Below the pieces are notes generated by a model that was not told the origin of the DNA, made no database searches, and saw only the letters and a program-made list of their open reading frames with translations. This document shows positions 2,901 through 29,935 of a stretch of 64,000 nt of DNA, piece after piece. Numbering within the stretch: the first letter of the stretch is position 1; each line of letters begins with the position of its first letter. The position numbers were made by a program, and so were the translations under genes. Location of the stretch: assembly GCA_903813345.2 (NCBI GenBank), contig CAIIXF020000007.1, positions 15,232,714-15,296,713 on the forward strand, read 5' to 3'. The DNA is from Owenia fusiformis. Its lineage: Eukaryota > Annelida > Polychaeta > Sabellida > Oweniidae.

Positions 2901-3808
2901 ACGTGTCGCAAAAAGGTGGCGCATTTGTTTTTTAGGGGTATCGCGTGAATGTAGCTTTGATTCCCCGGATTCTAAAATAATATTCTAATTAAAGTTGTAT
3001 ATCATTTTAAAGCTGTTTCGATGAAGTTTTTAGATCAACTACACTCCGTTCACAATTCTTGCGCGTTCTTTTTTAAAAAAGAGTTTTTTACCAAAACATC
3101 TGGCAAATATCCCCTGTTGACACGTTACATTTTGAATTATTTTTCGTCTTTAAACGCTCATAACTCAAACAATATATGACTATTATACTTATTTTTCGTC
3201 TTGATAAAGGTAGATAGAAGTTTTATTTCAAAGGATGAATTTTAGAAAGCGTCCCATATTGTGACGTCATAGAGTCTGAAAAATAGAATCTGTTGACAGC
3301 GACCTTTTCTGCTCATTTTTTTGTTCCTTCAACTTTTCAGGTGTACATTAAACAAAAAATACGAGATCAATTTTTAATAAATCATACATGATTATTTTGC
3401 TCCTAAACTCTAGTTTATTAATAAATAGTTGATTTTGTTCGCAAAAATATGTGTTTTCTGTTGTATGTGGAAAAGTGGAGGACGAAAGGTTTTCAAAATT
3501 CATCAAAATAGGGCTAATTAACGCCATTCGCCTATTTTCAAGCACAGCAACGCGTATATTTATTTCACCTAAAATATCAATTGATTCGTGTTTTATGATG
3601 CTCCTAGCCCATTAACAATATATATATGATATGAGAGTTATTCGTCTAAAATGTTTTGAGATAGAGAGGTAAATGTGGAGGACGAAAGGATTTTCATTTG
3701 TATACATTTTTCTCAAAAACGTCACATTCTACCATGTTAAAAGCGAGGATCCTCTGGATTACGCCACAAAATGTGTAACAATGCGTGCGCGAGCTTTTTG
3801 CGATACAT
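2901..3808. repeat. About 0.9-kb terminal-inverted-repeat element, copy A
   Basis: The element starts with ACGTGTCGCAAAAAGG and ends with a decayed inverse near 3790-3808. A close, same-orientation copy lies at 10655-11532, where the right end (CTTTTTGCGACACGT) is intact. The interior is highly similar between copies, including a pair of 'gtggaggacgaaagg' motifs about 200 bp apart. There is no long open frame, so it is a non-autonomous DNA transposon. Confidence 0.82.
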
Positions 3809-4002
3809 CGTAATAAACGTGTATACTTTTATAATTTTGTAATAATAAACGGTTATGAAATAGCACGTCAGATATACCAATTATCATTTGTTGTTACATT
3901 TGATTGGGAATTCATGAAATATAATATAATACATCAAAACAAGCATTGTCTTAAAATATTGTTACGGTATGGATAATTGTGTTCTGTGATCACCTTTAAT
4001 CT

Positions 4003-4877: not shown

Positions 4878-7800
4878 TTATAACTGAGGTAATCCAGCAA
4901 CGATCGAACTTTCAATTCCACATTCATCTTTTCCTCTCAAGATCTTAAAGTAACCTGCAACATAAAGCAATAATTAGTTTTCAAATATGGAGTCCAACAC
5001 AAATGACATTTTCAAACATTTGTGAATTATTATTTCTCAATTGTTACCTTTATCTCCCCAGGTTGGGTTCCATGAGTTAGCAGCCAACCAATATGGGGTT
5101 CCATTCTCCTCTCCCCAACCAAGGATCTTAACAGCATGTCCCTTTAGAGCAGAGCCAGACATATGCTGGTACACACCTGCAAATACACCACTTGTAAGCC
5201 TTATTGCATGATGATGATGTATTAATGAGGTTGACAGATCAAAGTTATCGATGAAGCAAATAATGAAGAGAACCAAACAAGTATTGAAAGGAGTAGAATA
5301 TGACAATATGGCATAACATTTTAGTTTTCCTTTGAAAATCAAGTTGTTAAAATGAAATATCCAGCACTTGCCATAATCTACTCCAAACATACGCTTTTAA
5401 AGTAAATGTTTTAAATTAAAATAATTTCTACCAGCTAATCAACCTACCAGATTTGTAATTTGGGAAGTCAGCGAAAACAGTAAACGAGGCTTCTACTGGT
5501 CCATTGGTCATGATCTCAGTCTGAATATCCTTCACACTGGAACCCACTGTGTATACACTCTTTCCTGGAATATAATATGCCACATTCTGTGTTGTATGAA
5601 TACTATTTGAAATGATTGTGCTCCTATAGACCCTATTAGTCCATTTCATGGCGTAGAATAATGGAAACAACGTCACAACGCATGCGCGTAAATCGACATT
5701 TCATGGTCCAAAGATTTCAATGTAGAGCAGTCTTCATCAAAATTTAAAATCTTAATAACTTTTTAGCAAATAATTTATTTTCTTAGGATTCAACGGATCC
5801 TTGTTAGACCCAACGAAGTGTTCATTTTGATATATAAAACAGCAAAATCCATCCACAGATCTTTCGGCCTTTTAATGATTTAATTTTCGGGATATTTTGC
5901 TAAAATCCCCCATTGGCCGCCATTATAGACTTTGAAAAAACCCAAATCCTCATCATTTCATATCATTCGTTAAGTGATCTAAACAACTCCAATCGCTTAG
6001 GATTCAACGGATTCTAAGAGATCAAAGCTAATACAATATGTTGACAACCCCCGTTTCAATATTTGCCGCATAATCTTTCGGCCTTTTAGGTTATAAATTT
6101 GTCAATATTTTGATTTTCGACCATTAATGACGTACTTGGATCCAAGATTCATTGTCCCTCTACGACATGCCATTTTCTGAACGTATAAATATTTAAAAGT
6201 ATGATGTTTTTCTGTGTAAATACTATCATTATTATTGGAGTGATTTAGCTGGGTTGCCAAAAAAATAACTTTGGGGAAATTTTTTGTATCTATTACCATG
6301 GTAACATACCAGGTATATGGTGGTATCCAAACGCTAAGTCAATAGTCAACGCCATGTTAAGCGATTGCACCCCTCCCTAATCAGCCTATATCATTTTTTC
6401 CCCAAACAAAATTTTTGGGCAACCCAGTTAAATCACTTCAGAAAACCCTTATTATCATAAATCGACCATAAAACATCGTACTTTTAACAATTTCTAGGTT
6501 CACTATTGGATGTATAGGGGTGACAAATGGACTATATAGATTGATCAGGACAAGTCATAACTATCACAAAGCAAATAAATACTTGACTTGACTACATGTA
6601 TTTTGAGAAAACAGATATGGAACACTAAATAAACCCCTGATCTGCTTCTAACATCCAAAAAGTACATCTGGATAAAAAACATCGTTAAACTTTTCAAATA
6701 TGGGCTGAGCTTACTCGAGTCTCATAGAGAAGGCTTTGGACCGAAGTAAGGCTGAGCAGATGTAACAAAAATGTTTCAGGTATTCATGATATTAGTTTTT
6801 AACGTAAACATAAAAATCTTGATTGGGAATTGAGTATTGTCACTCAAAATTGAAACCTCAGATTGGGTTCGGAGCCGAATTAAAGCGACAGAGCAAAAGC
6901 CGGAATTCACACGATTATTCTCGAAGAATCTCAATAAATCTTGCTTAAACTCCGCCTTTGTGAGAGTGTCAATCCCCTGATTGTAAGTAACTTCGCCTTT
7001 TGTCCTTATATCGAGAGGCGATACAATGTCGGATTGTCGGAAGTTTGAACTGTGAGAGATTCTAAATATTCTTGTGTCCATTACTCGATAGTCGATACTT
7101 CATTTGTACATGTATATTGCACCATTCTTCCGTCATATATACAATATCATGAACATTTATACATCTGAAATCTATTGCCGAGTAGTTACATTGTACTTGT
7201 ATTGGTTTTGACAGAAATTCTATCAGAAAACTGAAATATTTCTTGCAAATTTTTGATTTTACAACCTACTCATAAAAACTTGTTGAATACTAAAATATTA
7301 TAGGTAAAAGGGGCTAGCCCTTAAATTGCGGAATGGTGGTAGAATTTTGGAGAGTGGGCGTGGTATTTAAATGTTTGATCAAACCTACTTAACAGTAGAT
7401 AACTTCAATTATATAGCCCGTACTATCACAATTTCAACAGAATGTAGGATTCTAGTGTCATTCACAATTCATATTTTTTATGAGATTATTATAATAGGTG
7501 ACATTAACAACCTTTAATTTAGCGGCAGAAAAGAAGGTTTACAATATTACCTGATCCTTAAGGTTTCTTTATAATGCTTTCATTAGATTCCATACCCTTT
7601 TGTGTTATGGGAAAATATATGAGATTAAGGGATCGAGGACATACACAAAGAATCTTAGATATATGCGGTTCAATTGATGGTTGTGGGAAACATTTCAACA
7701 AGGCCTTCAGAGTTCTTAGAGTCATGAATGAGGAATTGGAATCCTTGGTGATTTCAAAATTCCATGAATCGGGAGAATATTCAGCTTAAAAGATGCTCTA

Positions 7801-10800
7801 AATCTCCTTTAGTTGCTACTTTAGTTATCACAAAGTACCAAACATTCAAGAATGACATGAAGAATGGAGAGTTTGAAAGGACTGCCCAATACTGAGTTAA
7901 ATATCAGAACATAATTGATATATCACCGTACTTTGAGAATGGAACATCGGCCTCTTGACGAAATGTGTTTGGAAATTTGGCTAATTGGTAAAATGACATG
8001 TTGCCACTAATGCAACTTTTACTGTTTAAGCCCCAGATTTTTGACGGTATCCTCCCCATGTAGGATTTTTTCAAAATACTACTGAAGAGATAATCTTCCT
8101 ATTTTAATCACAACATTTCTAAAAGGTTTCTGACCTCGATCATATTCCTTGTTTGTATCCAGTTTTATGTATTTTTCAAGAGTTTTACCACAGTTAATGT
8201 GACAAAAATGTAAAATAATCTCGGGAAAAAATATTTTAGACTCCGGAAAAGCTATTAGACTGGAGCAAAGAGGGTCTTAAATCATTATACTCTGAAGAAC
8301 CTTCGGAGTCTAAAAGCTCAGAAGTCTAAAACCCCGCATGGCTCTCCATGAGTTTTTATTATGAACTGACTTGGTTGTTTTGCAATAAATCATTCTTTAA
8401 CAATAACTGACCCCTTTGTTTTCTCTATTCAAACCTCATTTCTTACAAGAGTTTCTCAATTTGCAGTTAGTGCACAATCTCTACATTGAAAATATCTTAT
8501 AATTAGAATTCGTCTCCCATCAAAACTATGTGAGAAATTCAGTTTCAGTTCCTAGCTTTTTACACAAAGGCACTGTTCTGAAGATAACATGGTTGTGTTT
8601 TTTTTTTATCAAAACTACAAAGACAACATCGTTTCAACACTTTGCCAAGTGTCTTTATTTGTATTTTTGATTTGAATTGTTATTTCAGTTAATGCAGTAC
8701 AAGCATGTACTAGTACTTCTTTTGCAAAACATTTCATTTATCGGTCAAGCCAAGTAACTTAGTCAACATTCAATATTCGTATGTTCATCAATATTGACTA
8801 AGAATGGTGCCACAATTGAAGTAAACCTCTGTTTAATTATTTTCAATAAACCTATCATCAAACGTGTAAATGATAAATTTGATGTTCTGTTACATATTGG
8901 TGAAGCAATCTTGGGGATATGGCCTAAATTTCTGAATTTCCACTATGTCCCTGTATACCCCTACTTCAAAAGATGTATGTTATTGGTCATTTTTCATTAT
9001 GAATCAACCATTATGTATTTTTTCTTGTCTACATACAGAATGAACTTTCTGTTTTCAAATATTGAAAGATGGTACTGCATCTATTTTTTCATGATATGGA
9101 GCAAACAAATGCGTGTCAATTTACACTGTAATATCCCACATACTTATATTTTAAGGGTAGTTTTGAAGAATAATCAAGAAAATCCATGTTTTCAAATGAA
9201 TTCATCCTTGTCAAAGAACGTAAATGAGGATGTGCGGTTTGAAAAACTAACAACATGTTTTAAGTTCTTACAACTCTTGGTTAAAACAAATATTTCGAAA
9301 GTTGTGATTACGAATGTAATATCCAACTCAATGAAATTTGTTGATATTTGTGAATTTTTTCTTTCGGAATGCACATTGCTGGATCACAGAACATTGCCTC
9401 TTTCGAGATGCACGAAAAGTGTATTGCTAATACTTGACGTCGTTCGGATATTTGGATGTGATTGACGTTTTTGTTAATCTCCAACCACTGTAACTTCCAA
9501 CTTAATTTTTGAAAGCCAAATATGATAGTCACGAATTGATATTTAAGTCACACGTTGATGCATACATCATGTGTGTACATTAACTGTCAAATGCATGCCG
9601 ACTTACATTTATATAAATATCCACAGTTAACTCAAATCATCAATTCTCGAAACGGTTTATCAAATAACCTGGTGAGTTTGATATTTCATTTTAATTCATA
9701 ATTATGGTATCGGATTTGAGTATGATATTAGTCGAGGCTTAAACAAAGCAATAAAATTGCGTGAAACCTTTTGTGAAAATTTGAACAATTTTTCAAGAAT
9801 TCTCCTTCAAAGTGTTACCACAGTGCTCCCCGGGAGTAGAAATTTCGTCTTGTGTAATCAAAATAATAGCGGGTGGTTTGAATTTTTGTTTGAGTTTATA
9901 GCCCAGCATCTATAAATTTAAAAACGTGTCGCCTCATTGAGAGGTACATGCAGATTTTGGCGATCTATCATTCTAAAAGGCTAAATTTTGTGCAAAAACA
10001 GGAGTTGACACGCTTACATTTGGAATTGAAATTTCCTACATAATTGTCGACTCATGTTTAAAAGTCATGAAAACAAGGTTGAACACAAAACAATGACCTA
10101 ATTACTGTCTATTTAGCATGGGATCACTTAGGGAAATATTATTCATGACTTAAATCGTTAACAGTTAAGTTGTATCCCAAGAAACTTATCAATTTAGAAA
10201 TGCAAAATGTTCAATTTTGTTTTTCAATTATAAAAATGGCACCTGTAGAGAACAACGTTTACAAAATTATTTAAAACGGAGATATTTACTATGCATATGA
10301 TTCTATATCTTGTTCCCAAAGGAGTTTGTTAAGGAGCGGTATATCTTAACGTACTTTTATCATCCCAAACTCAAATATTTCGAATACTTATTTCGAGAAC
10401 GTTTTGTTGAGAATGGATTCGAGATGTACTCAAAATTAATACGTTAAAATGTGTATTATCGTCTTAATAACCACCTCACAAATTATTTTGGAAATCAAAG
10501 ATGTACGATTTTTGAGATTTTTATTTTCGAATGTTGACTTACTTACTTGGCTTGACTGTTATGCTAAAGGTTAAACAAGCATTTCTGTTTTCAACCTCAA
10601 AAATAATTTGATGTCTAAAAGATTAAAATAAAACAAATTAATTATACTTGCATGGACGTGTCGCAAAAAGGTGGCGCATTTGTTTTTAAGGATATCGCGT
10701 GAATGTAACTTTGATTCTCCGGATTATAAGATAATATGATAATTAAAGTTATATATCTTTTAAAGCTGTTTCGATGAAGTTTTTAGATCAACTACACTCC

Positions 10801-13800
10801 GTTCACGATTCTTGCGCGTTCTTTTTTAAAAAAGAGTTTAACATCTGGCAAATATCCCCTGTTGACACGTTACATTTTGAATTATTTTTCGTCTTTAAAC
10901 GCTCATAACTCAAACAATATATGACTATTATACTTATTTTTCGTCTTGATAAAGGTAGATGGAAGTTTTATTTCAAAAGATGAATTTTAGTAAGCGTCCC
11001 ATATTGTGACGTCATAGAGTTTGAAAAATAGAATCTGTTGACAGCGACCTTTTTTGCTCATTTTTTGCTACCTTCAACTTTTCAGGTGGACATTAAACAA
11101 AAAATACGAGATCAATTTTTAATAAATCATACATGATTATTTTGCTCCTAAACTCTAGTTTATTAATAAATAGTTGATTTTGCGCAAAATTATGTGTTTT
11201 CTGTTGTATGTGGAAAAGTGGAGGACGAAAGGTTTTCAAAATTTATTAAAATAGGGCTAATTTACGCCATTCGCCTATTTTCAATCACAGCAACACGTTT
11301 ATTTATTTCACCTAAAATATCAATTGATTCGTGTTTTATGATGCTCCTATCCCATTGTTAATACATATACGATATCAGAGTTATTCGCCTTAAATATTTT
11401 GAGATATAGAGGCAAATGTGGAGGACGAAAGGATTTCCATATGTGTACATTTTTCTCGAAAAACGTCACATTCTGTGGTGTTAAAAAGCGAAAATGTGTA
11501 ACAATGCGTGCGCGACCTTTTTGCGACACGTCATGACAATTAAACGCAGGAAGGAATTTGTATACTTTAATATGTTAATATAAATGACTAACGTAGATTC
11601 AAGAATAACCGAGTATTTCCATTTTTGATCTCATGACTTACTGTATTATATCGCACGTGCGTATATAAGGGTTATGTACTGGGAGGTTTTGGATACAGGG
11701 TTTATCCCAAGGGAAATATGTGTATCTCACGAGGGACCGAAAACCGACCGTACATAACTGGTGTATCTCATACTTGAGTGGGTTTGGGGTAGATATAACC
11801 TTTACCACCTTTTTCAAATGACAAGATAGGCCTATACTGTAAAAGCACAATTTATATTTAACATTTTCATAATATTCCTTCAGCTCAATACAATAGAATT
11901 GTAACATTTAAACTTTTTGAAAAATTTTAAACTTCTGAAATTTAAATTTTTAAAATTTTAAAAACTTTTGAAAAAATTCCCGGGAGCGGGATGGATATAT
12001 TATATCTGCCCGCATTTGGCCTAGAGCGGGACATATACAATATATCCTGCCCGCTCCTCAGATATGATATATATTCCCGGGTGATATCTACCCCAAACCC
12101 ACTCAAGTATGAAATACAATATTATTATATGGCCATATTATATATACTATACATATAAAACCCCGTATCTTGCCCAGTATTTTGCCCAGTGTTTCTCACA
12201 TCCAATGTTTACATCTGGATACAAATGAAACAAAGAAAATGCCGGATGATATAAAACAAATAAATCATCTTGGAAATATTATCTTACCATAATGTTTATC
12301 CTGTCCGTATGTCAAGTGGAATCCCGCCTCACATTTTCTCACACATTCAGGTGTGGGGTACGGCTGGGTACAAAGGGGGTATGGTTCACGGATTCCATGG
12401 TGGCCACATTTTGGGAGGGTGTAAGGACGGCAGCCCTTTAAACAATAAAAAATACAACAATAATTATGTGAGATACATTTTTGTGTGGACTGTAGTGTAC
12501 TCAAGGTTTCATTAAGTTTATCTCTGAGAAAATGAAATGTCAAATTGTTGATTTTATAGAGAACATGTTGTATGGCATTTTCATTCAAGGTGGGCAATAC
12601 CATCTTTGGCATGTTTCCACCTTACTGATTTATAAGGAAGAAAGACACAAATGGAGCCTTATTGAAGAGAAGGGGAAATTACTCTGCATCGAGTGTATAA
12701 ATAAGTAACTTACATGCTTGGAATTGTACTCTCCTCCTGAGACAAGACCATGATATTTCCAATACTGCCAGGCTGCTTCTGGGTAACCTCCATTACATCT
12801 AGAACAAATAAACAAAAATAAATACATATACAGAAGAACTGTTCAATTTCCCAATCATATAAGTGAACTTACACATAAAGGGCATTGCTCAGAATCCCAA
12901 CAGTCCGAATTCCATTGATCCAAAACCTGATCTTCCGAATACTAATAATCCAAATCCCATTGGCCCGAAATCCGCTCGTCCAAATCCTATTGGTCGGAAT
13001 TCCGTTCGTTCGAAACCTAGTGATCCGAATTTGATCTGTTATGTTTGTTGTTATGTTATGTTACGTTATGTTAATGTTATGTTACATTTATTTCCATATT
13101 ATAATTACAAGTAAAACAAACAAAGTAGGCACATGACGCATCTGCGTATACTGTGCAGGACACACCATTTTCAGTCTTCCACTGGTAATCTGCTCGACAT
13201 GATTACGCTGGTTACCGAAACGGTTTGTTTCGGTAACACAATGTCGGAACGTCGAAGGTACGATTTTTCTTTTTTCCTTATTTCACGAGTCGTAGGCAGA
13301 ATCCTCACGACATTTTTTTTCACAAACGTATATCAGTATCATATGTTTTAGATAGAAAATGTACATGATTGCGAAAAAAATAGCTCAGAAGACAACAGAA
13401 TCGTCGATTTAATTCCTAACTTAGTTACATAAACGGTAGGGGTTAAAAGTGCAGATATTAACTGTTTTTCGAAATACCGTTTATGTAACTTAAGTGAGGA
13501 ATTAAATCGACGATTCCGTTGCCTTCTGAACTATTTGTTCGCAAATGTGTACATCTTCTTAAACATATGATACTGATACACGTTCGTGACAAAAATGTCG
13601 TGGGAATTCTGCCTACAACGTGTGAAATAAGGAAAAAAGAAAAATCGTACCTTCGACGTTCCGACATTTTGTTACCGAAACGGTTTCAGCGTAATCGAGT
13701 GGATCACCAGTGATTTCTGCATTTTTACATTGTATCAGTACTGTATTATCTACATGTTTATAGTTGAAGCATGGACGTATATTATGCCCCCCCCCCCAAA

Positions 13801-16800
13801 CACTGGTGATCCACTCGATTACGCTGGTTACCAAAACGGTTCGTTTTGGTAACAAAACGTCGGAACATCCGGAAGGTACGATTTTTCTCGTTTCCTTATT
13901 TTACACGTTGTAGGCTGAATTCCCACGACATTTTTTAACACAAACGTGTATCAGTATCATATGTTTAAGAAAGTGTACATATTTGTGAACAAATAGTTCA
14001 GAAGACAACAGAATCGTCGATTTACTTCCTCATTTAAGTTACATAAACGATTTGGGTTAAAAGTGCAGATCTTAACTGTTTTTCGAAAAACCGTTTATGT
14101 AACTTAAGTGAGGAAGTAAATCGACGATTCTGTTGTCCTCTGAGCTATTTTTTCGCAAACATGTACATTTTCTAAAACATATGATACTGATGCACGTTGT
14201 GAGAAAAAACGTCGTGGGGATTCTGCCTACAACGCGTGAAATAAGGAAAAAAGAAAAATCGTGCCTTCCACGTTCCGACATTTTGTTACCAAAACGGTTC
14301 GTTTTGGTAACCAGCGTAATCGAGTGGATCACCAGTGCCCAAGGATCCGCCAGTGTATAGTATCCCTTTTCAACTTTATTCGTTGGGATAATTAGGCTAA
14401 TCTTGTACGGCGACTGTTTGTTTACTTTTGAAGAATCCCCGGGAATTTTGTACGTAGTATGAATCCTACAGGAGAATTTGGGAGATGCATTCTGAGACAA
14501 CAGTGTAGCAAAAATAATATACTTCATACATATTTTCTGATGAAAGTAATGAAGTAACGCACCCAAAGCCACATGAAGAGCAACAAGTCACCAGATCCTC
14601 TGCGGAGACACGTACATTCACTTTGCCCATGGAGGCGATACAGTAACGGTCGGACATTGCCTCAACTGCTGCAAAAGCCTACGAATAATTTTTTATCCTT
14701 TATATGATGTACATTCAATATCATTGTGTGAAATATATCAGAGTTACATTAAATGTTCACAATTAACTGTATCAAATCTTTAAATCGGAAGATTCAAACA
14801 TGAACAGTTTTTTTTTATGTACAATGTATAATTTGTACAATGACTTACCCAACTTGATCCACAGGAAGATTGGTCTCTAATCTCTGCAATAGTGGGGCAG
14901 TTGGGCCACTTTGTACGAGAGTCAAAGGAGTCAGGGATGGAATTGTAGGTAATATCACGGACTTTCTCCTCCAGGATAAGTTCTAGTTCATCCTTGATAA
15001 CACCACATAGGCGCTTCACAAACTCCACACTCTTTCCCTTGAATGTGGGTCCTGCCTAAAACATTATAAGCAATATGCTCATATTATATAAGCCTAACCC
15101 TTATATATTGTTTTCACTCAAATAACAGAAACGTACCTTGCTTAGTCTTCAATATACTCATTTTTAGAAAAATCAATAGACGGATGCAAATATTACCTTC
15201 CGCAAATATAGCTTGATAAATTGGTCACATTTTTAAAAGGCAATTAAGGTCGATGTGTACGTTCGAAATTTTTATGTCTTCATCGGGGTCATATTTTATT
15301 TTAAGGAATTAATCATTAATTAACTCGTTTCACATGGTATAATCTTTCACATTTGCACAAAGAGTGCATTAATGTATCTAGAAACTAATAGTGAGTGTGA
15401 AGAAAATTCTGTTTATAAAATGTATGAAAAATGAAAAAAATCAGTTACCTACTTTTTAAAAGTACAAAATAAGTAAGTCACTTTATTTTCTTATTTCTTA
15501 TAGACCTTATGAAAGAATATTATTCACTATTCTACTGGGGAGCTGTAGTGTAACGGGCCAGATACCAGGCATGCCCCCGTGCGTGAACCGAACCCTGGAC
15601 CCTCCGCTACAAAATCTGATGCTTTACAGCTCGAGCCAGAGGGACTGGCCACTACATTTAGCCTGAAGCAGCAGCAGGTGTAATTCAAAAAATAAGTAGT
15701 CAGAGTTAGCTATATGATTTATTCAAAAATGTATGTAATATATTGGCTCCTTTCCTGTTTTCATTCATTCAGAATCGTTGTCCTCCTTAAAATGATTAGC
15801 CATGTGAACGTATTTTTTTATGTTTATCCCTTAATTCATTCAAATCCTATTTTTTAAATCAATGTAGCTTTGAGCCAATGTAAGGCAAATATGATGACCG
15901 TTCTCACGTCTATTTTAAAACTTGGAAATAATTATTGTATAGTATCCCACACAAAAGGCTGTCCCTTACAGATCCTCATATTCTACCACTCCCCCTCCCC
16001 CCACAGCTCAATCTTAATGAAACTTGGTATGCTTATTCTGTGGTATATTTATTTATACACTCAACATTTTTAATATAATTTGAGTTAAAAAAAACCAGAA
16101 AAGTTATAGGCTTGAAAATATAGCTGTATTTTCTTAATATGTTAAAAATCACTTCATAATTATGCATTAAAATTCACGGTGACCAATTGTTAACAGTGGT
16201 GATTGTCCCGGACGTATTTTTTCAAACAATTTAGACGTGATTTTTGGAAATCCTGAGAGGTAGGTTGATAAATTTGGTTATGAAATTGCTGTCACTTGAC
16301 TTTAAGTAAATGTAAGTAATTTATATTGCTTACCATACTATATATCCTAACTTCAGGTATCCACAAACGCGTTATTTGCACGAATATTAAGCTATAGCCT
16401 TGTTTAATCGGAAAATGAGCGATTCTGGCAGTGTTACGCATATTTTTGCCTGGAAATCACTTGCCTGCCTTGTATTCAATGAATACAAGTAGATCGTTTC
16501 ATAAGGAAAGTACTCACAATATCACAGTGTATGTGCGAAACCACAAATTAATGCCTTGGTCACATTTGCCAAACTAAAATTTATGTACTATACAAATACT
16601 ACTATGGTCAGGAACTTGAATGCTGGAGGTGGCTGTGGCAGAATATCTATTTGAGAAAAAATATTAGACGATACAGTATCCGAGCCCAACATTTTAAATT
16701 CTTAAATGCTGATGTATTGCAAATAGGATAGTCCCCGAGCTCCTCCAAAGAATAAAGTGTCGTTGTCCGGTACTGCGCCACAAAAATGAATATATCGTTT

Positions 16801-17116
16801 GAAAGTACTGACATTCCTTGTAAAGGAAAATATTTTCTTTTTGATTGAAACGGGGACTTTTGCCTGTATGGAGTATGGTGTTGATGCTTTCCAAAATTAC
16901 CCAAATTTTGCTGGGGGTTAACAAAAATATAAAACCTCTATTTATTTCTGAATATTCAAAATTCAAAGGTTAAAGGTGCTCACCTTCCATGTAGTTTCTA
17001 CTTCACGGTTGACATAGTTTATGATCTCATTTGAGAGAGCCTCGTGGTGTGTGGGGATAGAGTTCAGAGGAGTAGCGGCAACTAGGCCTATCATACATAA
17101 TACTAGAGCTAGCATC
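4878..17116 (-). CDS. Cathepsin B-like cysteine protease paralogue with Ser in place of the catalytic Cys
   Basis: Eight coding exons on the minus strand join in frame to 336 residues: 17115-16984, 15055-14849, 14678-14563, 12798-12714, 12435-12288, 5564-5448, 5176-5048 and 4954-4878 (stop 4880-4878). Human cathepsin B has 339. All introns are GT-AG. The protein has a signal peptide ([14 protein letters not shown]), a short propeptide with a VKRLCG motif, and the mature domain from about residue 92. His282 ([11 protein letters not shown]) and Asn302 (ANSW) of the triad are present. So is the occluding loop with an HH pair (CGHHG), which gives carboxydipeptidase activity in the family. The active-site segment reads SSCGSSW: residue 112, the nucleophile, is Ser (AGT), not Cys. 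With no frameshift, stop or bad splice site, this is probably an expressed pseudoenzyme, like TINAG-type proteins, rather than a pseudogene. Introns hold many repeats; intron 5 alone is 6.7 kb, against 255 bp in the paralogue at 23440-27009. Confidence 0.93.
6239..6437. repeat. About 200-bp foldback element
   Basis: The left arm starts AGTGATTTAGCTGGGTTGCC; the right arm ends in its inverse (GGCAACCCAGTTAAATCACT). The arms are about 40 bp around a unique centre. It lies in intron 5 of the first cathepsin gene. Just beside it (about 5780-6090) two diverged direct copies share 'ttaggattcaacggat' and 'atctttcggccttttа'-type segments, suggesting older duplicated repeat DNA. Confidence 0.7.
8794..9465 (+). 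CDS. Unrecognised 223-codon open frame inside cathepsin gene 1 intron 5
   Basis: This is an uninterrupted plus-strand ATG frame of 223 codons, antisense to the host gene. It is the longest open frame outside the LRR-Roc-COR exon. The predicted protein is rich in Ile, Phe, Leu, Asn and Cys with hydrophobic patches in the first 115 residues. I recognise no domain or catalytic motif. An open run this long is uncommon in DNA this AT-rich, but amino-acid content mirrors base composition and there is no promoter, splice or poly(A) evidence. It may be a transposon relic, a nested gene or chance. Confidence 0.15.
   Translation: MTKNGATIEVNLCLIIFNKPIIKRVNDKFDVLLHIGEAILGIWPKFLNFHYVPVYPYFKRCMLLVIFHYESTIMYFFLSTYRMNFLFSNIERWYCIYFFMIWSKQMRVNLHCNIPHTYILRVVLKNNQENPCFQMNSSLSKNVNEDVRFEKLTTCFKFLQLLVKTNISKVVITNVISNSMKFVDICEFFLSECTLLDHRTLPLSRCTKSVLLILDVVRIFGCD
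10655..11532. repeat. About 0.9-kb terminal-inverted-repeat element, copy B
   Basis: This is the better preserved copy of the element at 2901-3808, in the same orientation. The ends are GACGTGTCGCAAAAAGG and its inverse CCTTTTTGCGACACGTC, so the terminal inverted repeat is at least 17 bp. It lies in intron 5 of the first cathepsin gene. There is no transposase frame. Confidence 0.87.
11655..12117. repeat. Inverted-repeat element with GTATCTCATACTTGAG ends, copy A
   Basis: GTATCTCATACTTGAGTGGG near 11763 is matched by its inverse (CCCACTCAAGTATGAAATAC) ending at 12117. The interior has an AT-rich low-complexity middle and paired 'gggagcggga'/'cccgctcc' segments. A second copy lies at 30640-31056. 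Similarity between copies continues about 100 bp left of the inverted end (from about 11655), so the true element may be longer. It lies in intron 5 of the first cathepsin gene. Confidence 0.75.
12893..13037 (+). repeat. Degenerate roughly 18-bp repeat around 'cc(a/g)aatcc.attgg'
   Basis: About seven or eight imperfect units, for example 'ccgaattccattgatccaaaacc' and 'ccaaatcctattggtcggaa'. Read in the plus frame from 12863, they give a PNPIGPK-like peptide repeat. The frame ends soon after in a 'gttatgtta' simple-sequence tract. This looks like simple-repeat decay, not a gene. It lies in intron 3-4 DNA of the first cathepsin gene, between exons at 12714-12798 and 14563-14678. Confidence 0.6.
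13180..13712. repeat. Foldback element 1 (533 bp, nearly all inverted repeat)
   Basis: It begins CACTGGTAATCTGCTCGA and ends in the diverged inverse TCGAGTGGATCACCAGTG. The arms, each about 260 bp, contain smaller palindromes (GTTACCGAAACGG...) and the mirrored 'cgttccgacatt'/'aatgtcggaacg' and 'taacttaagtgaggaa' blocks. It can form a very long hairpin or cruciform. A sister element follows 88 bp later at 13801-14337. Confidence 0.85.
13801..14337. repeat. Foldback element 2 (537 bp, nearly all inverted repeat)
   Basis: The ends are CACTGGTGATCCACTCGATT and its exact inverse AATCGAGTGGATCACCAGTG. Inside the ends lie GTTACCAAAACGGTTCGTTTTGGTAAC palindromes in both arms. The arms meet in an AT-rich centre near 14070. 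It is better preserved than element 1 and is probably the same family inserted or duplicated in tandem, separated by a short spacer with a C run. No coding capacity. Confidence 0.88.
14849..15055 (-). other. Coding exon 2 of cathepsin B-like gene 1, carrying the Cys-to-Ser active-site codon
   Basis: This 207-bp phase-0 exon encodes residues 45-113: the end of the propeptide, the mature N-terminus ([17 protein letters not shown]) and the oxyanion-hole/nucleophile segment. It ends in a Trp codon before GTAAGT. The nucleophile codon is AGT (plus-strand 'act' at 14852-14854). The homologous exon of gene 2 (25865-26071) has TGC there. A single T-to-A change from TGT would explain it. The exon is otherwise well conserved (about 59 of 69 residues identical to the paralogue). 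Confidence 0.9.
15578..15650 (-). repeat. tRNA-like sequence (tRNA-derived SINE or tRNA pseudogene)
   Basis: On the minus strand TGGCTCGAGCTGTAAAGCATC resembles a tRNA A-box/D-arm. About 30 bases later GGTCCAGGGTTCGGTTCAC resembles a B-box/T-arm. The anticodon stem is poor and the acceptor stem does not pair, so it is unlikely to be a functional tRNA. It sits in intron 2 DNA of the first cathepsin gene. Confidence 0.4.
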
Positions 17117-19220: not shown

Positions 19221-19320
19221 GTATACTTGAATTATAACTTGTCGCCCGGTCAAGTCGTCTTCACGTCTCCTATACAGATACGCAGTGTAAGTTGGCAATA
19301 GATTTGAACAATCAGATAAA
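19221..19320 (-). other. Probable 5' non-coding first exon of cathepsin B-like gene 1
   Basis: Minus-strand sequence up to GTATAC|GTAAGT aligns well with 27635-27720 of the paralogue, including a shared 'ataggagacgtgaag' and 'acaagttataattca'. Both are followed by a plausible donor and precede the coding exon, whose acceptor lies just before the start codon. The transcription start at the high-coordinate end is not defined. The donor differs from the paralogue, lying six bases further downstream. Confidence 0.6.
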
Positions 19321-22300
19321 TCATAGGGGATATTAAACGGTCCTTCATAAAGCTCAACCTTGGTTGAACCATGGATGAATAGCAAATTGGATACCTAATA
19401 GCCGGTTGACTAGGTACACACATGCACCTGTGTATGGAATGTTTTCTGTTTCATTATTCATATTTTACAATATGTATTCGTATTTTGAACTTTTGAATTA
19501 TGTTCGTAACTTTCAAGTATTTTTATTCATTGTTTGTATTTAAGTGACACATTGTATATCCGTATTTAAATAAATTTAAGTTCATTTAGTACCTTTATCG
19601 TTGAATAAGTACTTGTCTTGGCATTTCATTTTTTAATTGTCGAATTTATTTTCGCAACAAGGTAATATGTTTCCACATAAAAGTGCACATTTACTGTTCG
19701 TAACTATCGTCATTTGTATTTGTAAATTACACTTATATATTCGTTTTTCATTGGTTCATTTAGATCACGTGATCATTCTCAACGAGACATGGTCAAAGTC
19801 ATCCCCCTCCCCTCACACACCTCAGGATTTCATTCTGTTCAATAAAAAAGTTATATAGCACCCTACACAAAAGGCTGTCCCCTTACATTTCCTTATCCTT
19901 CCACTTTCCCACAGCTCAATTTTGATGACCTTTGCCTCGAGACTTGCAGTTTATATTCGTTAACTCACATTTGTATTCGTAAAGTCACATTTATATTAGT
20001 AGTTTCATTTTATTATTCGTTAATGTACAAATATGATAGTAAAATAGCAATCCCACTCTCTGAAAAATTATGGATTAGGATTCCACTTTGTCACTTTTTT
20101 AAAAATGCAAGGCTTATTTTCTAAAAAGAGGTTCTTGTTTTTCTCAATTTAAATGTCTCAAACGTTTCTTCTACACTATATTAATAACTTCTAAAAGGGG
20201 GATGGGTATTGAAATGCGATAAAGTTAAAAACCACATTTCCCGTGTTATTTTCCCATAAGAAAATGCTATCCATTGTTTTCAGCATGATTTTGGTCATCG
20301 AAAATTGATATCTTCAAAACTAAACTTTCAATACCTTTCTACTTTTGAAGATGTTTTAGACCTCTTGTTGAATAATGCTTTCATGCAATAAAAATCAGAA
20401 AAGAAGATCCTCTTTTGAGCAAATAAGTTCAACATTTTGAAAAAGTGTTGACGTCCCTATTTATAATTTTTCGAATTGTTCAATTGATATTTTTATCATC
20501 ATGGGGACTTCACTTGAGAGAAAACATATTGTTTTAATAAAAACACTGTATTTATGCCCAGAAACTTGCAGAAAGTATTCATGGTGAAATATATGACCGT
20601 CTAAAATCACTTGCCATCTGCACATGCACACCGGAATAGCCTGACTACGGTAAAGTCAGATACCGATGTCACAAATGGCGGACATCACCGTCGCTTCAAC
20701 TGTTTAATCACCTGGTCCTAATTTCATGGGATTTTATCGTCGCTAATTCTGTGCATGCATTAAACTCTTGTGAAAATGTATCATATGAAAATATCCCATC
20801 TTCGATCAATATGGGTCGTGAATCGCCACAATATAGCGTCTACGATATCGTCAATGACAACGGAATCTGAATTTGAGAAAGGACAGGTGGCGGTAAACCC
20901 CTCTTTTAGCCCCCCTACAAATCAAGTATATATTGACATGGAATTGAAGAGGAAGTATGACTCATTACTCAAAATGTGAATTCTGAGAGTTTTGACATTT
21001 GACCTTAACACTAGGGTGGTTTAAAGGTCAACTTTGAGAGTTGCTATTTTTGTCAAAATTTTACTGTTTCCAATCCAATCCAAGAAATAAGAGCAATTGG
21101 CTTTATTTTGATTGTGACTGATAAAAAGACATGTGAATAGAAATAAAAAAAATTTTAATAAATTATCACGGGCAATTAAAATCTTGAGAATAAATACCGA
21201 TATGGACATTTTTAGAGGGACTAAATTTTCTTGTTTCAAAATGATTGCTCTTGTTGCCTTTTGAGACTCTAACAGTATCCTAAGCATGTTTTAAGAGTTG
21301 AGATGTGATTATTATTTTAAATGCCCATGGGCAATTAGGATAAAATAGCTTAAATTAAATGCACACAAGGGCACTTCAAAAAGAATGGATTTTCTTATTT
21401 CCATTGCTTCTCGCAAGTTTTCTAAACATGTTTGCCATATTCTAAATAGTTATAGGCACACTTTTACTAAATGCCCATTGGCATTTGGCATTTGAAATTA
21501 AAATGTTTGAATGTACACTTATTTGCCAATTTGCAGTTCCCATATTTGAAACACAAATAATTCAGAGAAATCCTCTCTCAAAATATATCATAAAATATAA
21601 GGCAGCATCATGTATGAATGGCATGACACTCAAAGGATTGGCTAAAATAATTTCTACTTATTCCCTATTTAGAAAAATACTTAGGCCATTCAAATATTTT
21701 CTTCTAATAATGTCACTAAATTCTATGTTTTCAGAAAAAACAAAATGTCCCCATGTACTCTCTACTTGTAATGTATATAAATGACAAAGGGAATTGTGAT
21801 CTTGGATTATATTGTAGCGAAATGAGTTCCAAGATTGATTAAAAACTACATGTATATAAACTTCATTAACAAGGCCATCTGAACTCAAGAGGTGTGTTAC
21901 TTGCTTTGGTACAATGTGTTATTGCATTTTCATTCTTAAATAATATAACCCTTTAAATAAATGAAGGTTTTGTAGTTGTTAATATAAGGCTCTTCATCAG
22001 AATGCCAACATATAATTAATTTTGGATGGCCTAATCTGTACATGCAGTTATGTAGTGTACATGTATGCCCAGGTTAGCTGCCATATTGAAAACATAAACC
22101 AGTCAGGCTTATTTTCATCACAAAAGTTAAGTTTTAGTGGTGAGCCCGAACTCCCACAAAAATGATATTTGCAGAGAAGGTACTTTACAGTCTCTGCATT
22201 ATACAGTTTCAATATATTTTTTGTGGGAGTGTGGGCTGACGGTTAATTTTTCAATGAAAGGGAATGAGCACCATGCTAAAACTTGATAACAAAGTGAACG

Positions 22301-23439: not shown

Positions 23440-26400
23440 TTATAACTTAGGTAGCCCAGCAGTGATCTGACCTTCAATTCCACATTCATCTTTTCCTCTC
23501 AAGATCTTGAAGTAACCTGCAAAATAAAGCAATCGTAAAAAATCATTTTTTGCTTCATATTAAGTTAACAAACCCTATAATAAATCAAAATCAAGATCAA
23601 ACTAACTATCTACATTTGTACAATTTGTAGAAAAAACATGTACAAATATTAATTTGGAGATTTCGGATCCAGTGGAGTCAAAGCTTTTACAGTATGCTGT
23701 AAAAGTCTGCAAATATTGATTCTAACACAAACATTTTTGTACATTTGTATAACTGTAAAACCTGTTATGTGGAACACCTTTGGTACCTCTAAAAATGTTC
23801 AGCTTTGGTTCCACGTGTACTTTCATTAACATTAATTCTGTTGATCTTTGGACTCTGAAAAGTGTTCCATTTACAGATGTGTTCTACTTCTAGAGGTATT
23901 CCAATTTACATGTTTCAATGTATTATTTCTCAATTGTTACCTTTGTCTCCCCAGGTAGGGTTCCATGAGTTAGCAACCAACCAATATGGGGTTCCATTCT
24001 CCTCTCCCCATCCAAGGATCCTAATAGCATGTCCTCCTAGAGCTCTGCCAGACACATGTTGGTACACACCTGGAAAACCACCACTCTTGTAGGCATTAAT
24101 GCAACTAAATGATGATGTATTGATGGGATAGATATGTTTAAATTAGCAATGAGATAAATTACGTAGTGAACCACTGTTTAAGGGATGAAAATATTCAGAT
24201 AATGACAATATGACCTAACTTTTTATGGTATGATAAAAAGCATTGACAAATACGAATTCGCTTTGAAAATCAACTTGTTAAAATATTCAGTATTTCCATT
24301 TGTTATACTGTAAACGTACGCAAAGGTAAATGTTTTAAATTGAAATAATTTCTACCAGCTAATCAACCTACCAGATTTGTATGTTGGGAAGTCAGCGTAT
24401 ACAGTAAAAGCGCCCTCTACTGGTCCATTGGTCATGATCTCAGTCTGAATCTGCTCCACAGTGCGACTCACTGAGTATGCACTCTTGCCTGGAATATAAT
24501 ATACCCAATTCTGTATGTTGTATGAATAATATTTGAAATATTTGTGCATTAATGGTTTGCTCTGGAAAATAAGTCTCATAGAATTTATTTAGTATAAATA
24601 AACTATTTTAAGAAAAAATGATATTGAAGACTAAACAATCCACTGATCTGTTTCTAACATACAATGTGTATATCTGGACAACTGAGGAAAAAATGTACAA
24701 ATGATACAAACGCACACAAAACATCTTGGAAATATTATTTTACCATAATGTTTATCCTGTTTGTATGTCATGTTGAATCCAGTCTCGCATTTTTTCTCAC
24801 ACTTGGGTGTTGGGTACTCAGACTTTCCACATGGGGGGTATGGTCCACTGACATGGTGCTCACATTTAGGGAGAGTGTAAGGACGGCAGCCCTATAAATA
24901 AACAATGAGCAATAAAACGATACAGATGTGAGAAACATTTTGATTTTGGTTATATGGTATCTAAAGCGTTTTTCTCTGAGAAAATGGCAAATTGTTGAGT
25001 GTTTATAAGAGAATACCTTCAATTAAGGTGGGCAATAACATTTTTTGTATGGTTCTACCTCACTGATTTATAACGGAATACAGACCCAAAGGAGCCCTCT
25101 TGAAGAGAAAGGGACTTTGAATTCAAGTGTATAAGACAGTGACTTACAGTCTTGGAATTGTACTGTCCTCCTGATACGAGACCCTCTACTTGCCAATACT
25201 TCCAGGCTGCTGCAGGGAAACCTCCATTACATCTACAACAAATAAACACAAATATACTGTGGTTCAAATTCTTCTCGGAGGAATTTTCTTCATTGTGTTG
25301 TGAACCTGGACTACACATAACAATACAAGAACCCATATACTTCATCTTCTACAATCTACGTGTATCAATTAACTTACCAAACTTTCAATTGCCTGTATGT
25401 TGGCTCTTGAAAATTTTCTGGCAAACTTTGTGATTTGAGATTTATGCATTCAGCGTTAAGACATGTAAGAGAGAAAGGATTGTAAAATATATGTCATATA
25501 CATTTTTCTAATGAAAGATATGAAGTAACGCACCCATTACCACATAAATGGCAACAAGACAGCAGATCCTCTGAGGAGACATGTATGTTCACTTTGCCCA
25601 TGGATGCAATACAGTAACGGTCAGACATTGCCTCAACTGCACCAAAAGCCTGGAAAAAAGAACAAATTTGCTTCAACATGATATAGACATGCTACATTGT
25701 ATGAATCATATCAATGTATCATTAATACATGAAATATATACTAGCAATGCTAGTCTTTAAAATATCTTTTAACCATGAACAGACATTTTGTGTCACCCTG
25801 CATAATGACTTCAGAAAATTTTAATATGAACAGACATTTTGTGTCACCCTGTAAAGTGACTTACCCAGCAAGATCCACAGTCAGATTGATCTCTAATCTC
25901 TGCAATGGTTGGGCAGTTGGACCACTTGGTGCGAGAGTCGAAGGAGTCGGGGATGGAATTAGGGGTAATATCATGGACTTTTTCCTCTAGGATAGGTCCT
26001 AGTTCACCCTCAATAACACCACATAGACGCTTCACAAATTCCACACTCTTTCCCTTGAAAGCTGGACCTGCCTAAAACATATGATCAACAATATGCTTAA
26101 ATTCTTTTTTATAGCAATACTTTCTTCAAATTTTACACTGAGCCAATTCACATGTGCAGCAATAGATGTCCTTGATTATATCATACAAGAATTACAGAAT
26201 TAATTTTTTACATTTCACTTTTTGCTTATTAGTAAAGTCCCCAGGGGGTTTACTCACCTAGGAAATCTAAAGAAATCACTGATATATGTATATAGATTCA
26301 TTCAATTGTAAAATAACTGATAAATAACTTCATGAGCTTCACTCTTATTTTCAAACCTTGACAAACTGATAATCAACATGAGTAAACATTAAATTTGGAT

Positions 26401-27009
26401 ATCTCATTTATCTGTAAGTGTATGTTGACCTATGTTAAAGTCACCTCAAATCTTGACAATCATTGTGTATTTATGATAGTATGAGTTGAAAAGACCAATT
26501 TCAACCCCATTGTCTTTAAAACAAGTGTACTTCTATGTTAACAGGTTGTTTGAGAGATTCTTATTGTATTCTTATTGATATCTTACTTTTTAATTTATAG
26601 GTTCATTAAGTTTGAAAAACCAGCTGACAAGATCTTACATATAAAACACATGTAAATGTGGGGAGGTAGTATTATAAAAAAGTTTCAATCTTTTTAAAAC
26701 AAAATGTCAGAATCCTAAAACACACGTTTAAGCACACACAGTTTAGTAAATAACATGTTTTTTGAACCATATCATGTATACATTGATACATGAACATGTA
26801 CATGTACATGTACAGTACACAGCCACATTGAACTGAACTTAATCCATATTCAAAATTCAAATGTTAAAGGGGCTCACCTTCCATGTAGTCTCTACTTCAT
26901 AGTTGACATAGTCTATGATCTCATGTGAGAGTGCCTCGTGGTGTGTTGGGATGAACTTCAGTGGGGTAGAGGCAACTAGGCCTACCATACACAGTACTAG
27001 AGCTAGCAT
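23440..27009 (-). CDS. CTSB: Cathepsin B (papain-family lysosomal cysteine protease), intact paralogue
   Basis: Eight coding exons join to 336 residues: 27009-26878, 26071-25865, 25649-25534, 25232-25148, 24891-24744, 24488-24372, 24069-23941 and 23516-23440 (stop 23442-23440). Every intron is GT-AG, and lengths and phases equal those of gene 1. There is a signal peptide ([14 protein letters not shown]), a short propeptide with VKRLCG, and the mature start near [10 protein letters not shown]. Catalytic Cys112 lies in SDCGSCW, His282 in [11 protein letters not shown] and Asn302 in VANSW. The occluding loop keeps CEHH, the His pair used for dipeptidyl carboxypeptidase activity. [12 protein letters not shown] is the usual cathepsin B disulfide region. 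It should be made as a secreted zymogen and sorted to lysosomes. It is about four fifths identical to gene 1 by hand count and compact at 3.6 kb. The conserved 5' exon is at 27635-27720. Confidence 0.96.
25775..25860. repeat. 53-bp direct duplication at the exon 2 donor of cathepsin B gene 2
   Basis: The phrase 'tgaacagacattttgtgtca' followed by 'ccctg' occurs at about 25775 and again at about 25828. The second copy abuts the splice donor of the active-site exon (25861-25864). It is a local tandem duplication within the intron; the donor itself is intact. Confidence 0.7.
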
Positions 27010-27634
27010 CCTGGAAATGAAAAAAACACATTGCATGTTGCTAGCTGGGACTTCTCAGTAAGATATCACACTCATAGACTATAATTTTGTATAAATACTG
27101 ATTTTTACAATTTGCAAGTGACTTTGGCTAAGATTCAAGTATCAAAATAATGTTTAGGGTATCGAGAATCAGCTTGGCCCAAAAGGTAAGGTAAAATACA
27201 GTATAACAAATCACTGAATATGAAAAAATAAAATTCGAGGTACATGTACAAAGTGGAGTAAAAGAAAATCATCTCCCATTCAAGGTATAAAGATATGCCC
27301 CTACTCCGCAATAGGGGACAATTCATAAATTGCAGTTCTCAATCACAGACACGGGAACAAGAGTTCATCCCCCTCCCACTCACTATGTATTAGGTAGATT
27401 CTTTTTACATTTGCAATACAGTGACGGGGGGGGGATTTAAATCTTCATGTGCCTGTGTTCTGAATACTAACAAGAAAATGATTCTCCCATGCAAACATGT
27501 TTTCTTCATAAAAATATGAGCATAATGCACAAAGGGAGTCAATCTGACATGCTAAAAACTGAAGTAAGAAGTAAACATTGCGACAAATTGGAACTGTAAA
27601 AAACATATCTCTGTTACACAAGTAAATTACTAAC

Positions 27635-27720
27635 CTGAATTATAACTTGTTGTCCAGTCGAGTCCTCTTCACGTCTCCTATAAGCAGATAAGTTGACAAC
27701 AGATTAGAACAATCAGAGAA
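27635..27720 (-). other. CTSB: Probable 5' non-coding first exon of cathepsin B gene 2
   Basis: Minus-strand sequence ending ATTCAG|GTTAGT matches 19221-19320 of gene 1 over about 85 bp. The intron from here ends at the acceptor right before the start codon (27011-27012). Conservation against diverged flanks supports a transcribed 5' UTR. The start site is not mapped. Confidence 0.6.
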
Positions 27721-27721
27721 A

Positions 27722-27749
27722 TCATGTGATTCACTATCAGTCATGTGAC
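27722..27749. promoter_or_regulatory. Two TCATGTGA E-boxes (M-box/CLEAR-like) upstream of cathepsin B gene 2
   Basis: TCATGTGA at 27722-27729 and GTCATGTGAC at 27740-27749 lie just upstream of the 5' exon. MiT/TFE factors (MITF, TFEB) bind TCATGTGA and GTCACGTGAC, and cathepsin B is a known target in vertebrates. The aligned region of gene 1 reads 'tcatagggg' and lacks both. Function is inferred. Confidence 0.4.
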
Positions 27750-28319: not shown

Positions 28320-29935
28320 TTTTAATAATTTTACACATACTCCCATTTTATCAATTACCTTATAATGTTCTCCATACTCCCATTATATCAATTACCTGAA
28401 CATAATGTTCTCCTTTCTCCCATTACATCAATTACCTTAACATAGTGTTCTTCATACTCCCATAATATCAATTACCTGAACATAATGTTCTCCATATTCT
28501 CATTATATCAATTACCTTAACATAATGTTCTCCATACTCCCATTATATCAATTTCCTTAACATAATGTTCTCTATATACTCCCATTATATCAACTATCTT
28601 AACATAATGTTCTCCATACTCCCATAATGTCAATTACCTTAACATGATGTTCTCTATATACTCCCATTATATCAACTATCTTAACATAATGTTCTCCATA
28701 CTCCCATAATATCAATTACCTTAACATAATGTTCTCTATATACTCCCATTATATCAACTATCTTAACATAATGTTCTCCATACTCCCATAATGTCAATTA
28801 CCTTAACATAATGTTCTTCATACTCCCATAATATCAATTATCTTAACATAAAGTTCTCCATACTCCCATTATATCAATTACCTTAACATAATGTGCTCCA
28901 TACTCCCATTATATCAATTACCTTAACATAATGTGCTCCATACTCCCATTACATCAATTACCTTAACATACTCCCATTATATCAATTACCTTAACATAAT
29001 GTTCTCCATACTCCCATTATATCAATTACTTAACATAATGTTCTCCATACTCCCATTATATCAATTACCTTAACATAATGTGCTCCATACTCCCATTATA
29101 TCAATTACCTTAACATAATGTGCTCCATACTCCCATTACATCAATTACCTTAACATACTCCCATTATATCAATTACCTTAACATAATGTTCTCCATACTC
29201 CCATTATATCAATTACCTTAACATAATGTGCTCCATACTCCCATTACATCAATTACCTTAACATACTCCCATTATATCAATTACCTTAACATAATGTACT
29301 CCATACTCCCATTATATCAATTACTTAACATAATGTTCTCAATACTCCCATTATATCAATTACCTTAACATAATGTTCTCCATACTCCCACTATATCAAT
29401 TACCTTAACATAATGTTCTCCATACTCCCACTATATCAATAATCACCTTAACATGATGTTCTCCATACTCCTATTATATCAATTACATTAACTAAATGTT
29501 CTCCATACTCCCATTATACATGTATCAATTACCTTAACATAATGTTATCCATACTCCCATTATATCAATTACCTTAACATAATTTTCTCCATACTCCCAT
29601 TATATCAATTACCAACATAAAGTTCTCCATACTCCTATTATATCAATTTCCTTAACATAATGTTATCCATACTCCCATTATATCAATTACCTTAACATAA
29701 TGTGCTCCATACTCCCATTATATCAATTACCTTAACATAATGTTCTCCATACTCCCACTATATCAATAATTACCTTAACATAATGTTCTCCATACTCCCA
29801 TTATATCAATTACTTAACATAATGTTCTCAATACTCCCATTATATCAATTACCTTAACATAATGTTCTCCATACTCCCATTCTATCAATTACATTAACAT
29901 AATGTTCTCCATACTCCCATTATATCTAATATAAC
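28320..29935. repeat. About 40-bp minisatellite, some forty units
   Basis: Head-to-tail copies of a unit containing 'cttaacataatgttctccat' and 'actcccattatatcaattac', with single-base variants (gttctcc/gtgctcc/gttatcc, ttatatc/ttacatc/ctatatc). Some units are shortened, for example 'cttaacatactcccattata'. Blocks of several units recur, suggesting unequal exchange or replication slippage. The array begins about 0.6 kb upstream of the cathepsin B gene 2 5' exon and lies between it and the LRR-Roc-COR gene. Confidence 0.95.

Follow-up and report, generated by a model that had tools for sequence, protein, structure and literature searches.

The kind of gene described here is already known: cathepsin B paralogues in which the nucleophile has changed from Cys to Ser or from Cys to Gly have been published in beetles and in a schistosome. 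TINAG and TINAGL1 carry Ser at the nucleophile position of a cathepsin B-related domain and are matrix proteins that lack the cathepsin B propeptide, TINAG having a somatomedin B-type N-terminus. The Tribolium/Tenebrio proteins TmB32, XP_967834 and XP_968689 are, like the gene studied here, cathepsin B-like paralogues with a Cys-to-Ser exchange and are termed inactive homologues, the active site of the first two reading CGSSW, while a table footnote in the same report states that one T. castaneum entry has since been annotated as TINAG-like (PMC4336737). For Trichobilharzia regenti, the cited part of the report describes TrCB1.6 (Cys29 to Gly) as highly transcribed, inactive and processed in trans, and as a protein that binds chicken cystatin (PMC7054455). 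Beyond cathepsin B, a hemipteran cathepsin L is reported in which Ser replaces Cys and Arg replaces His (PMC12653315), and the papain-like domain of SERA5 is reportedly essential in function though non-enzymatic (PMC4671257).

The window, a stretch of 64,000 nucleotides (C7:15232714-15296713; the genome comprises 498 Mb in 525 contigs), holds a tandem pair of cathepsin B genes, both on the minus strand (Table 1). The coding span of gene 1 runs from 17115 down to 4878 and that of gene 2, its Cys-type twin, from 27009 down to 23440, each with eight coding exons and 336 codons and with exon lengths of 132, 207, 116, 85, 148, 117, 129 and 77 common to both. The original prediction of an intact gene 1 is borne out, as its exons splice into a single 1011-nt frame with no internal stop and GT/AG boundaries at seven of seven introns. 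Upstream of the ATG, both genes have a region of 81% mutual identity over 100 columns, which is a probable non-coding exon in each. Gene 1 scores 218.8 bits for Peptidase_C1 and 50.7 bits for Propeptide_C1, both above the curated cut-offs and the latter higher than in the twin (44.8 bits), and a search for Pfam families beyond these two returned none in either gene (E up to 0.001). The structural cysteines of cathepsin B are retained in gene 1, which has 15 cysteines to the 16 of gene 2, the sole one without a counterpart being Cys112; the loop cysteine stands at 202 in gene 1 and at 201 in gene 2, and the N-glycosylation sequon NMT at 220 of gene 2 is absent from gene 1. The best-ranked structural-database match of gene 1 is the procathepsin B chain 1mir.

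Table 1 Features of the two cathepsin B genes, in window coordinates.
Feature	Position	Strand	Remarks
Gene 1 putative non-coding leader exon region	19225..19324	-	81% identical to 27633-27725; candidate exon
Gene 1 coding exon 1	16984..17115	-	ATG, apparent signal peptide (judged by eye), propeptide start
Gene 1 exon 2	14849..15055	-	remaining propeptide, mature N-terminus, SSCGSSW
Gene 1 nucleophile codon AGT (Ser), cathepsin B position 29	14852..14854	-	within SSCGSSW
Gene 1 exon 3	14563..14678	-	spliced-frame reading
Gene 1 exon 4	12714..12798	-	spliced-frame reading
Gene 1 exon 5	12288..12435	-	occluding loop, CGHH
Gene 1 exon 6	5448..5564	-	VEASF; G172A, A173S
Gene 1 exon 7	5048..5176	-	catalytic His and Asn, KGHA
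Gene 1 exon 8	4878..4954	-	stop codon included
Gene 2 putative non-coding leader exon region	27633..27725	-	similar to gene 1 leader; candidate exon
Gene 2 coding exon 1	26878..27009	-	spliced-frame reading
Gene 2 exon 2	25865..26071	-	SDCGSCW
Gene 2 nucleophile codon TGC (Cys)	25868..25870	-	within SDCGSCW
Gene 2 exon 3	25534..25649	-	spliced-frame reading
Gene 2 exon 4	25148..25232	-	spliced-frame reading
Gene 2 exon 5	24744..24891	-	occluding loop, CEHH
Gene 2 exon 6	24372..24488	-	spliced-frame reading
Gene 2 exon 7	23941..24069	-	spliced-frame reading
Gene 2 exon 8	23440..23516	-	stop codon included

The remainder of the window contains a minisatellite upstream of gene 2 (28336-29926, with a 40-bp unit repeated about 40 times), an open reading frame of 878 aa on the plus strand (33585-36221) with leucine-rich repeats, a Roc GTPase domain and a COR-A match below the cut-off, and tandem repeats with a period of about 133-148 bp at 46235-47787 and 52659-53007, whose units look similar at both places.

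At the position of the catalytic Cys29 of cathepsin B (C1A), gene 1 reads Ser where the twin has Cys, as predicted, and by its sequence it is a cathepsin B homologue that is not classed with the active peptidases. The other residues named in the prediction are likewise all present in the translation: His282, Asn302 and the occluding-loop pair His192-His193 are retained together with Gln106, the counterpart of His110-His111 lying in CGHH at 190-193 and being followed by one inserted residue. Two further changes near the site, AFGA to AFAA (position 33) and GGHA to KGHA, were confirmed, but their proposed value as signs of lost catalysis is weak. The first site holds Ser in 11 and Gly in 3 of the 14 readable Cys-type C1 segments of the genome, and the second reads TNHA in the cathepsin C-like gene, the sole Cys-type gene alignable there; G33A and G197K alone are thus not diagnostic of inactivity.

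The nucleophile codon was read from one assembly, where a search of the genome with exon 2 DNA returned gene 1 (100%), gene 2 (87%) and nothing else, including no second haplotype copy of this exon. A single base (TGT to AGT) suffices for the change, so a mistake in the assembly, or a null allele in the sequenced animal, might account for it. We consider this improbable, as the rest of exon 2 is clean and in frame and the independent changes at other invariant sites fit a gene no longer bound to catalysis.

When gene 2 was the query, the genome gave 53 matches at E up to 1, and those of at least 60% identity were confined to the twins, except for a 33-residue match of 61% on contig C5 whose neighbours reach 36% and 45%; no cathepsin B gene besides the twins turned up in the genome. 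Among 96 Peptidase_C1 matches in the genome, 30 stretches were chosen, of which 25 had a readable active-site segment (the others being L025 and L027-L030). The nucleophile in these 25 segments, all outside the window, is Cys in 15, Ser in nine and Asp in one, giving 16 Cys, 10 Ser and one Asp when both window genes are included (n = 27). All nine Ser segments read CASSWA or CGSSWA; seven of them lie on C3 (L015, L017, L019-L022 and L024, at 0.6-4.4 Mb and inside 3.8 Mb, the L024 segment carrying a stop) and the others at C1:45.73 Mb (L016/L031) and C4:29.85 Mb (L023/L032). L031 and L032 look TINAG-like, their pattern upstream of the C1 domain being what we take to be that of TINAG; in a search for Somatomedin B, none of the 104 matches listed lay closer than 0.9 Mb to a TINAG-like locus. 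The Asp segment, QCGSDWAF, belongs to a cathepsin L-like active-site exon on the minus strand at C7:35.02 Mb (L010/L034), and three more exon pieces of this gene are readable in L033.

These loci bear on the likeness to TINAG drawn in the original prediction, which holds for the Cys-to-Ser substitution but not for the family. If gene 1 were itself one of the Ser-type papain-like matrix proteins of the TINAG family, its nucleophile change would be the expected one, and TINAG-like segments of the same type do occur in the genome (9 of the 25). However, gene 1 is 79% identical to its cathepsin B twin and has the same exon structure, it bears a Propeptide_C1 domain with no third Pfam family in place of the TINAG-type N-terminus, and in a mature-domain tree of eight rows (five cathepsin B, two TINAG-like, one cathepsin C-like) the cathepsin B rows split from the others at 97% bootstrap, with gene 1 pairing with gene 2 at 76% and with the TINAG-like and cathepsin C-like rows filling just 118-175 of the 253 columns. 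On domain content and tree position TINAG membership was rejected, and we regard it as extremely improbable. Because the tree puts gene 1 with cathepsin B and apart from the TINAG-like clade, its change is most simply read from the sequences as the second of two independent Cys-to-Ser events in this genome, this one within cathepsin B proper.

The twins are identical at 79.1% of 335 aligned residues and at 85.3% of nucleotides, with dN 0.125 and dS 0.315 by NG86 and dS values of 0.304 (LWL85), 0.280 (YN00) and 0.268 (ML), and three blocks covering exons and introns show 73-77% identity. With dS near 0.3 and this level of block identity, the tandem duplication behind gene 1 is moderately old, so that the earlier description of a recent duplicate is right about the duplication but not about its being very recent. 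From the exon positions, introns 1, 3 and 5 are far longer in gene 1 than in gene 2, and intron 7 is shorter. Intron 3 of gene 1 contains two tandem foldback elements (13190-14337) of a high-copy family (2148 first-look candidates genome-wide, 40 of them scored), and a stretch downstream of gene 1 (about 2902-3810) resembles by eye one in its intron 5 (about 10657-11535), both being probably copies of one mobile element.

Pairwise omega between the twins is 0.40 by NG86, 0.41 by LWL85 and about 0.47 by YN00 and ML, pointing to constraint since the duplication; the bootstrap 95% range of the NG86 value is 0.28-0.60, with 88% of 300 replicates below 0.5 and 98% below 0.6. Protein conservation is highest in exons 1 (dN 0.084, dS 0.306) and 2 (dN 0.079, dS 0.542), and the per-exon ratios are noisy, those of exon 4 (dN 0.194, dS 0.204) and exon 6 (dN 0.166, dS 0.146) being close to 1 or exceeding it, with few sites in each. 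In neutral simulations that evolved a single copy starting from gene 2 (kappa 2.5, 3000 runs), half the NG86 dS gave a mean of 5.4 stops, with 0.2% of runs free of stops and some 96 amino-acid changes expected in one lineage, compared with 0 stops and 70 amino-acid differences observed between the twins, the latter summed across both lineages. When the level was set to 0.13 per site (roughly half the ML dS), 0.9% of runs were stop-free and 8% had 70 changes or fewer. Given that no stop or frameshift is found where about five stops would be expected and that omega is 0.40-0.47, gene 1 was probably coding-constrained during most of the time since duplication, these figures spanning the whole post-duplication period, in which the time before and the time after the loss of the Cys are inseparable.

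Which copy had changed was assessed by polarising the differences with three mammalian protein sequences only (human, rat and bovine); a search for outgroup coding sequences gave one distant archaeal locus in the genome contigs (24% identity, excluded) and none in the viral contigs. The differences were assigned 25 to gene 1 and 13 to gene 2, with 32 unpolarisable (P 0.073), and where the three mammals agree the counts are 21 and 9 (P 0.043, or 0.061 without C29S). With human as the sole outgroup they are 25 and 14 (P 0.11), and across outgroup sets P ranges from 0.04 to 0.11, or from 0.06 to 0.14 without C29S. In the tree, the mature-domain branch of gene 1 measures 0.23 and that of gene 2 0.09, and from these borderline values the rate of gene 1 looks roughly double that of its twin. 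In cathepsin B numbering, its changes include C29S, G33A, E109G, G114E, P118L, K127E, G172A, A173S, G197K and V217A, and those of gene 2 include S25D and T120G. Positions 173 and 197 presumably adjoin substrate pockets. Cleft positions (34 of 198 invariant columns) account for 7 of 18 gene 1 changes (P 0.019), 6 of 17 without C29 (P 0.044), and 2 of 8 in gene 2, an enrichment to which we give little weight because the position set was drawn up after the changes were seen.

The faster rate would also suit a dying duplicate, that is, a gene that was long active and lost its nucleophile lately, its frame reflecting past selection. Besides the longer branch and the strict counts, the introns much longer than those of the twin (three of seven) and the high-copy repeats in intron 3 agree with this, and at 0.05 substitutions per site 12.7% of neutral runs are still stop-free, the loss of the Cys being undatable. 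On the other hand, gene 1 has no stop, frameshift or splice loss, its propeptide score still exceeds the cut-off, and cathepsin B-invariant sites besides C29 are altered, so the loss of the Cys was probably not the last event. We therefore view a dying duplicate as a real but distinctly weaker candidate.

We favour, by a little more than even confidence, the reading of gene 1 as an expressed pseudoenzyme with a cathepsin B fold and without efficient hydrolysis. Of the pseudoenzyme originally proposed, the intact paralogue with Cys29 replaced by Ser is observed; inactivity is likely from the sequence and fits the constraint on the frame. G33A, E109G, A173S and G197K, which accompany C29S at mammal-invariant sites, support this reading. 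The product would be a secreted or lysosomal pro-protein that is expected to lack efficient peptide hydrolysis because its nucleophile Cys29 is Ser. Loss of the thiol should also block self-processing, so trimming would depend on the active twin or a legumain-type protease acting in trans. Once trimmed, the protein may bind the ligands of cathepsin B, be they inhibitors, propeptide or substrate, without turning them over and thus act as a decoy or modulator. The roles named in the original prediction (substrate trap, inhibitor sink or regulator of the twin) are tentative suggestions, as is that of inhibitor decoy in particular, and the cleft changes A173S and G197K might lower the binding of normal ligands. 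Inhibitor binding has been described before for an inactive paralogue: TrCB1.6 binds chicken cystatin according to the cited part of that report (PMC7054455). The cystatin profile PF00031 gave 0 matches in this genome, and because 14 control genomes gave none either, the result is silent on cystatin absence.

Ser29 could instead be catalytically competent, making gene 1 a serine-type cathepsin B of low or altered activity, in which His199, Asn219 and Gln23 are retained. Some papain-like enzymes reportedly retain residual activity when Ser is the nucleophile (PMC10318531, PMC5840727); the cited section of a review credits human bleomycin hydrolase and congopain with activity that is not negligible after such an exchange, and ties this to a negatively charged pocket (PMC10318531). 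By our charge argument, G114E and K127E would add negative charge in the occluding-loop region, whereas near the site gene 1 gained Lys197 and lost Glu109. Moreover, such exchanges in archetypal cysteine proteases are said to reduce substantially or ablate activity, and natural-Ser SERA5 is described in the same passages as having no detectable activity while its Cys version is active (PMC4671257). A competent Ser29 thus appears unlikely, and still less do we expect a serine-type peptidase or acyl-transfer enzyme whose specificity would come from A173S, G197K and the remodelled loop.

The literature searched, mostly without the species name, returned no published description of gene 1 itself, and several known proteins serve for comparison with the preferred pseudoenzyme reading. 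The PDB 1mir procathepsin B chain reads SCGSSW as gene 1 does, and the matching chain 1cpj has Cys; we take the 1mir chain to be rat procathepsin B with an engineered Ser. The two window genes form a clean natural pair, an apparently active cathepsin B beside a Ser29 twin of equal exon structure and closely alike in the signal and propeptide regions. With the Cys replaced while the occluding-loop His pair is kept, gene 1 might be of use in telling ligand binding apart from catalysis. Overall, gene 1 is ordinary in evolutionary terms and modestly useful as part of a matched pair. Eudiplozoon nipponicum EnCL2 has a natural Cys-to-Ser change like gene 1 but is a cathepsin L (PMC5840727), and Plasmodium falciparum SERA5 has a papain-like domain with Ser and a non-enzymatic role but belongs to the SERA proteins and to a distant lineage (PMC4671257). 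In T. regenti, the inactive paralogues TrCB1.5 and TrCB1.6 stand alongside active cathepsin B genes, as here, yet TrCB1.6 has Gly at position 29, has lost His110 and belongs to a parasite setting, whereas gene 1 has Ser and keeps His110 (PMC7054455). The beetle homologues, as described in the cited part of their report, have a shortened occluding loop and more active-site changes, while the loop of gene 1 has both His (PMC4336737). Gene 1 contributes an instance in which the catalytic Cys has been replaced and the occluding-loop His pair kept, unlike in the beetle and TrCB1.6 cases.
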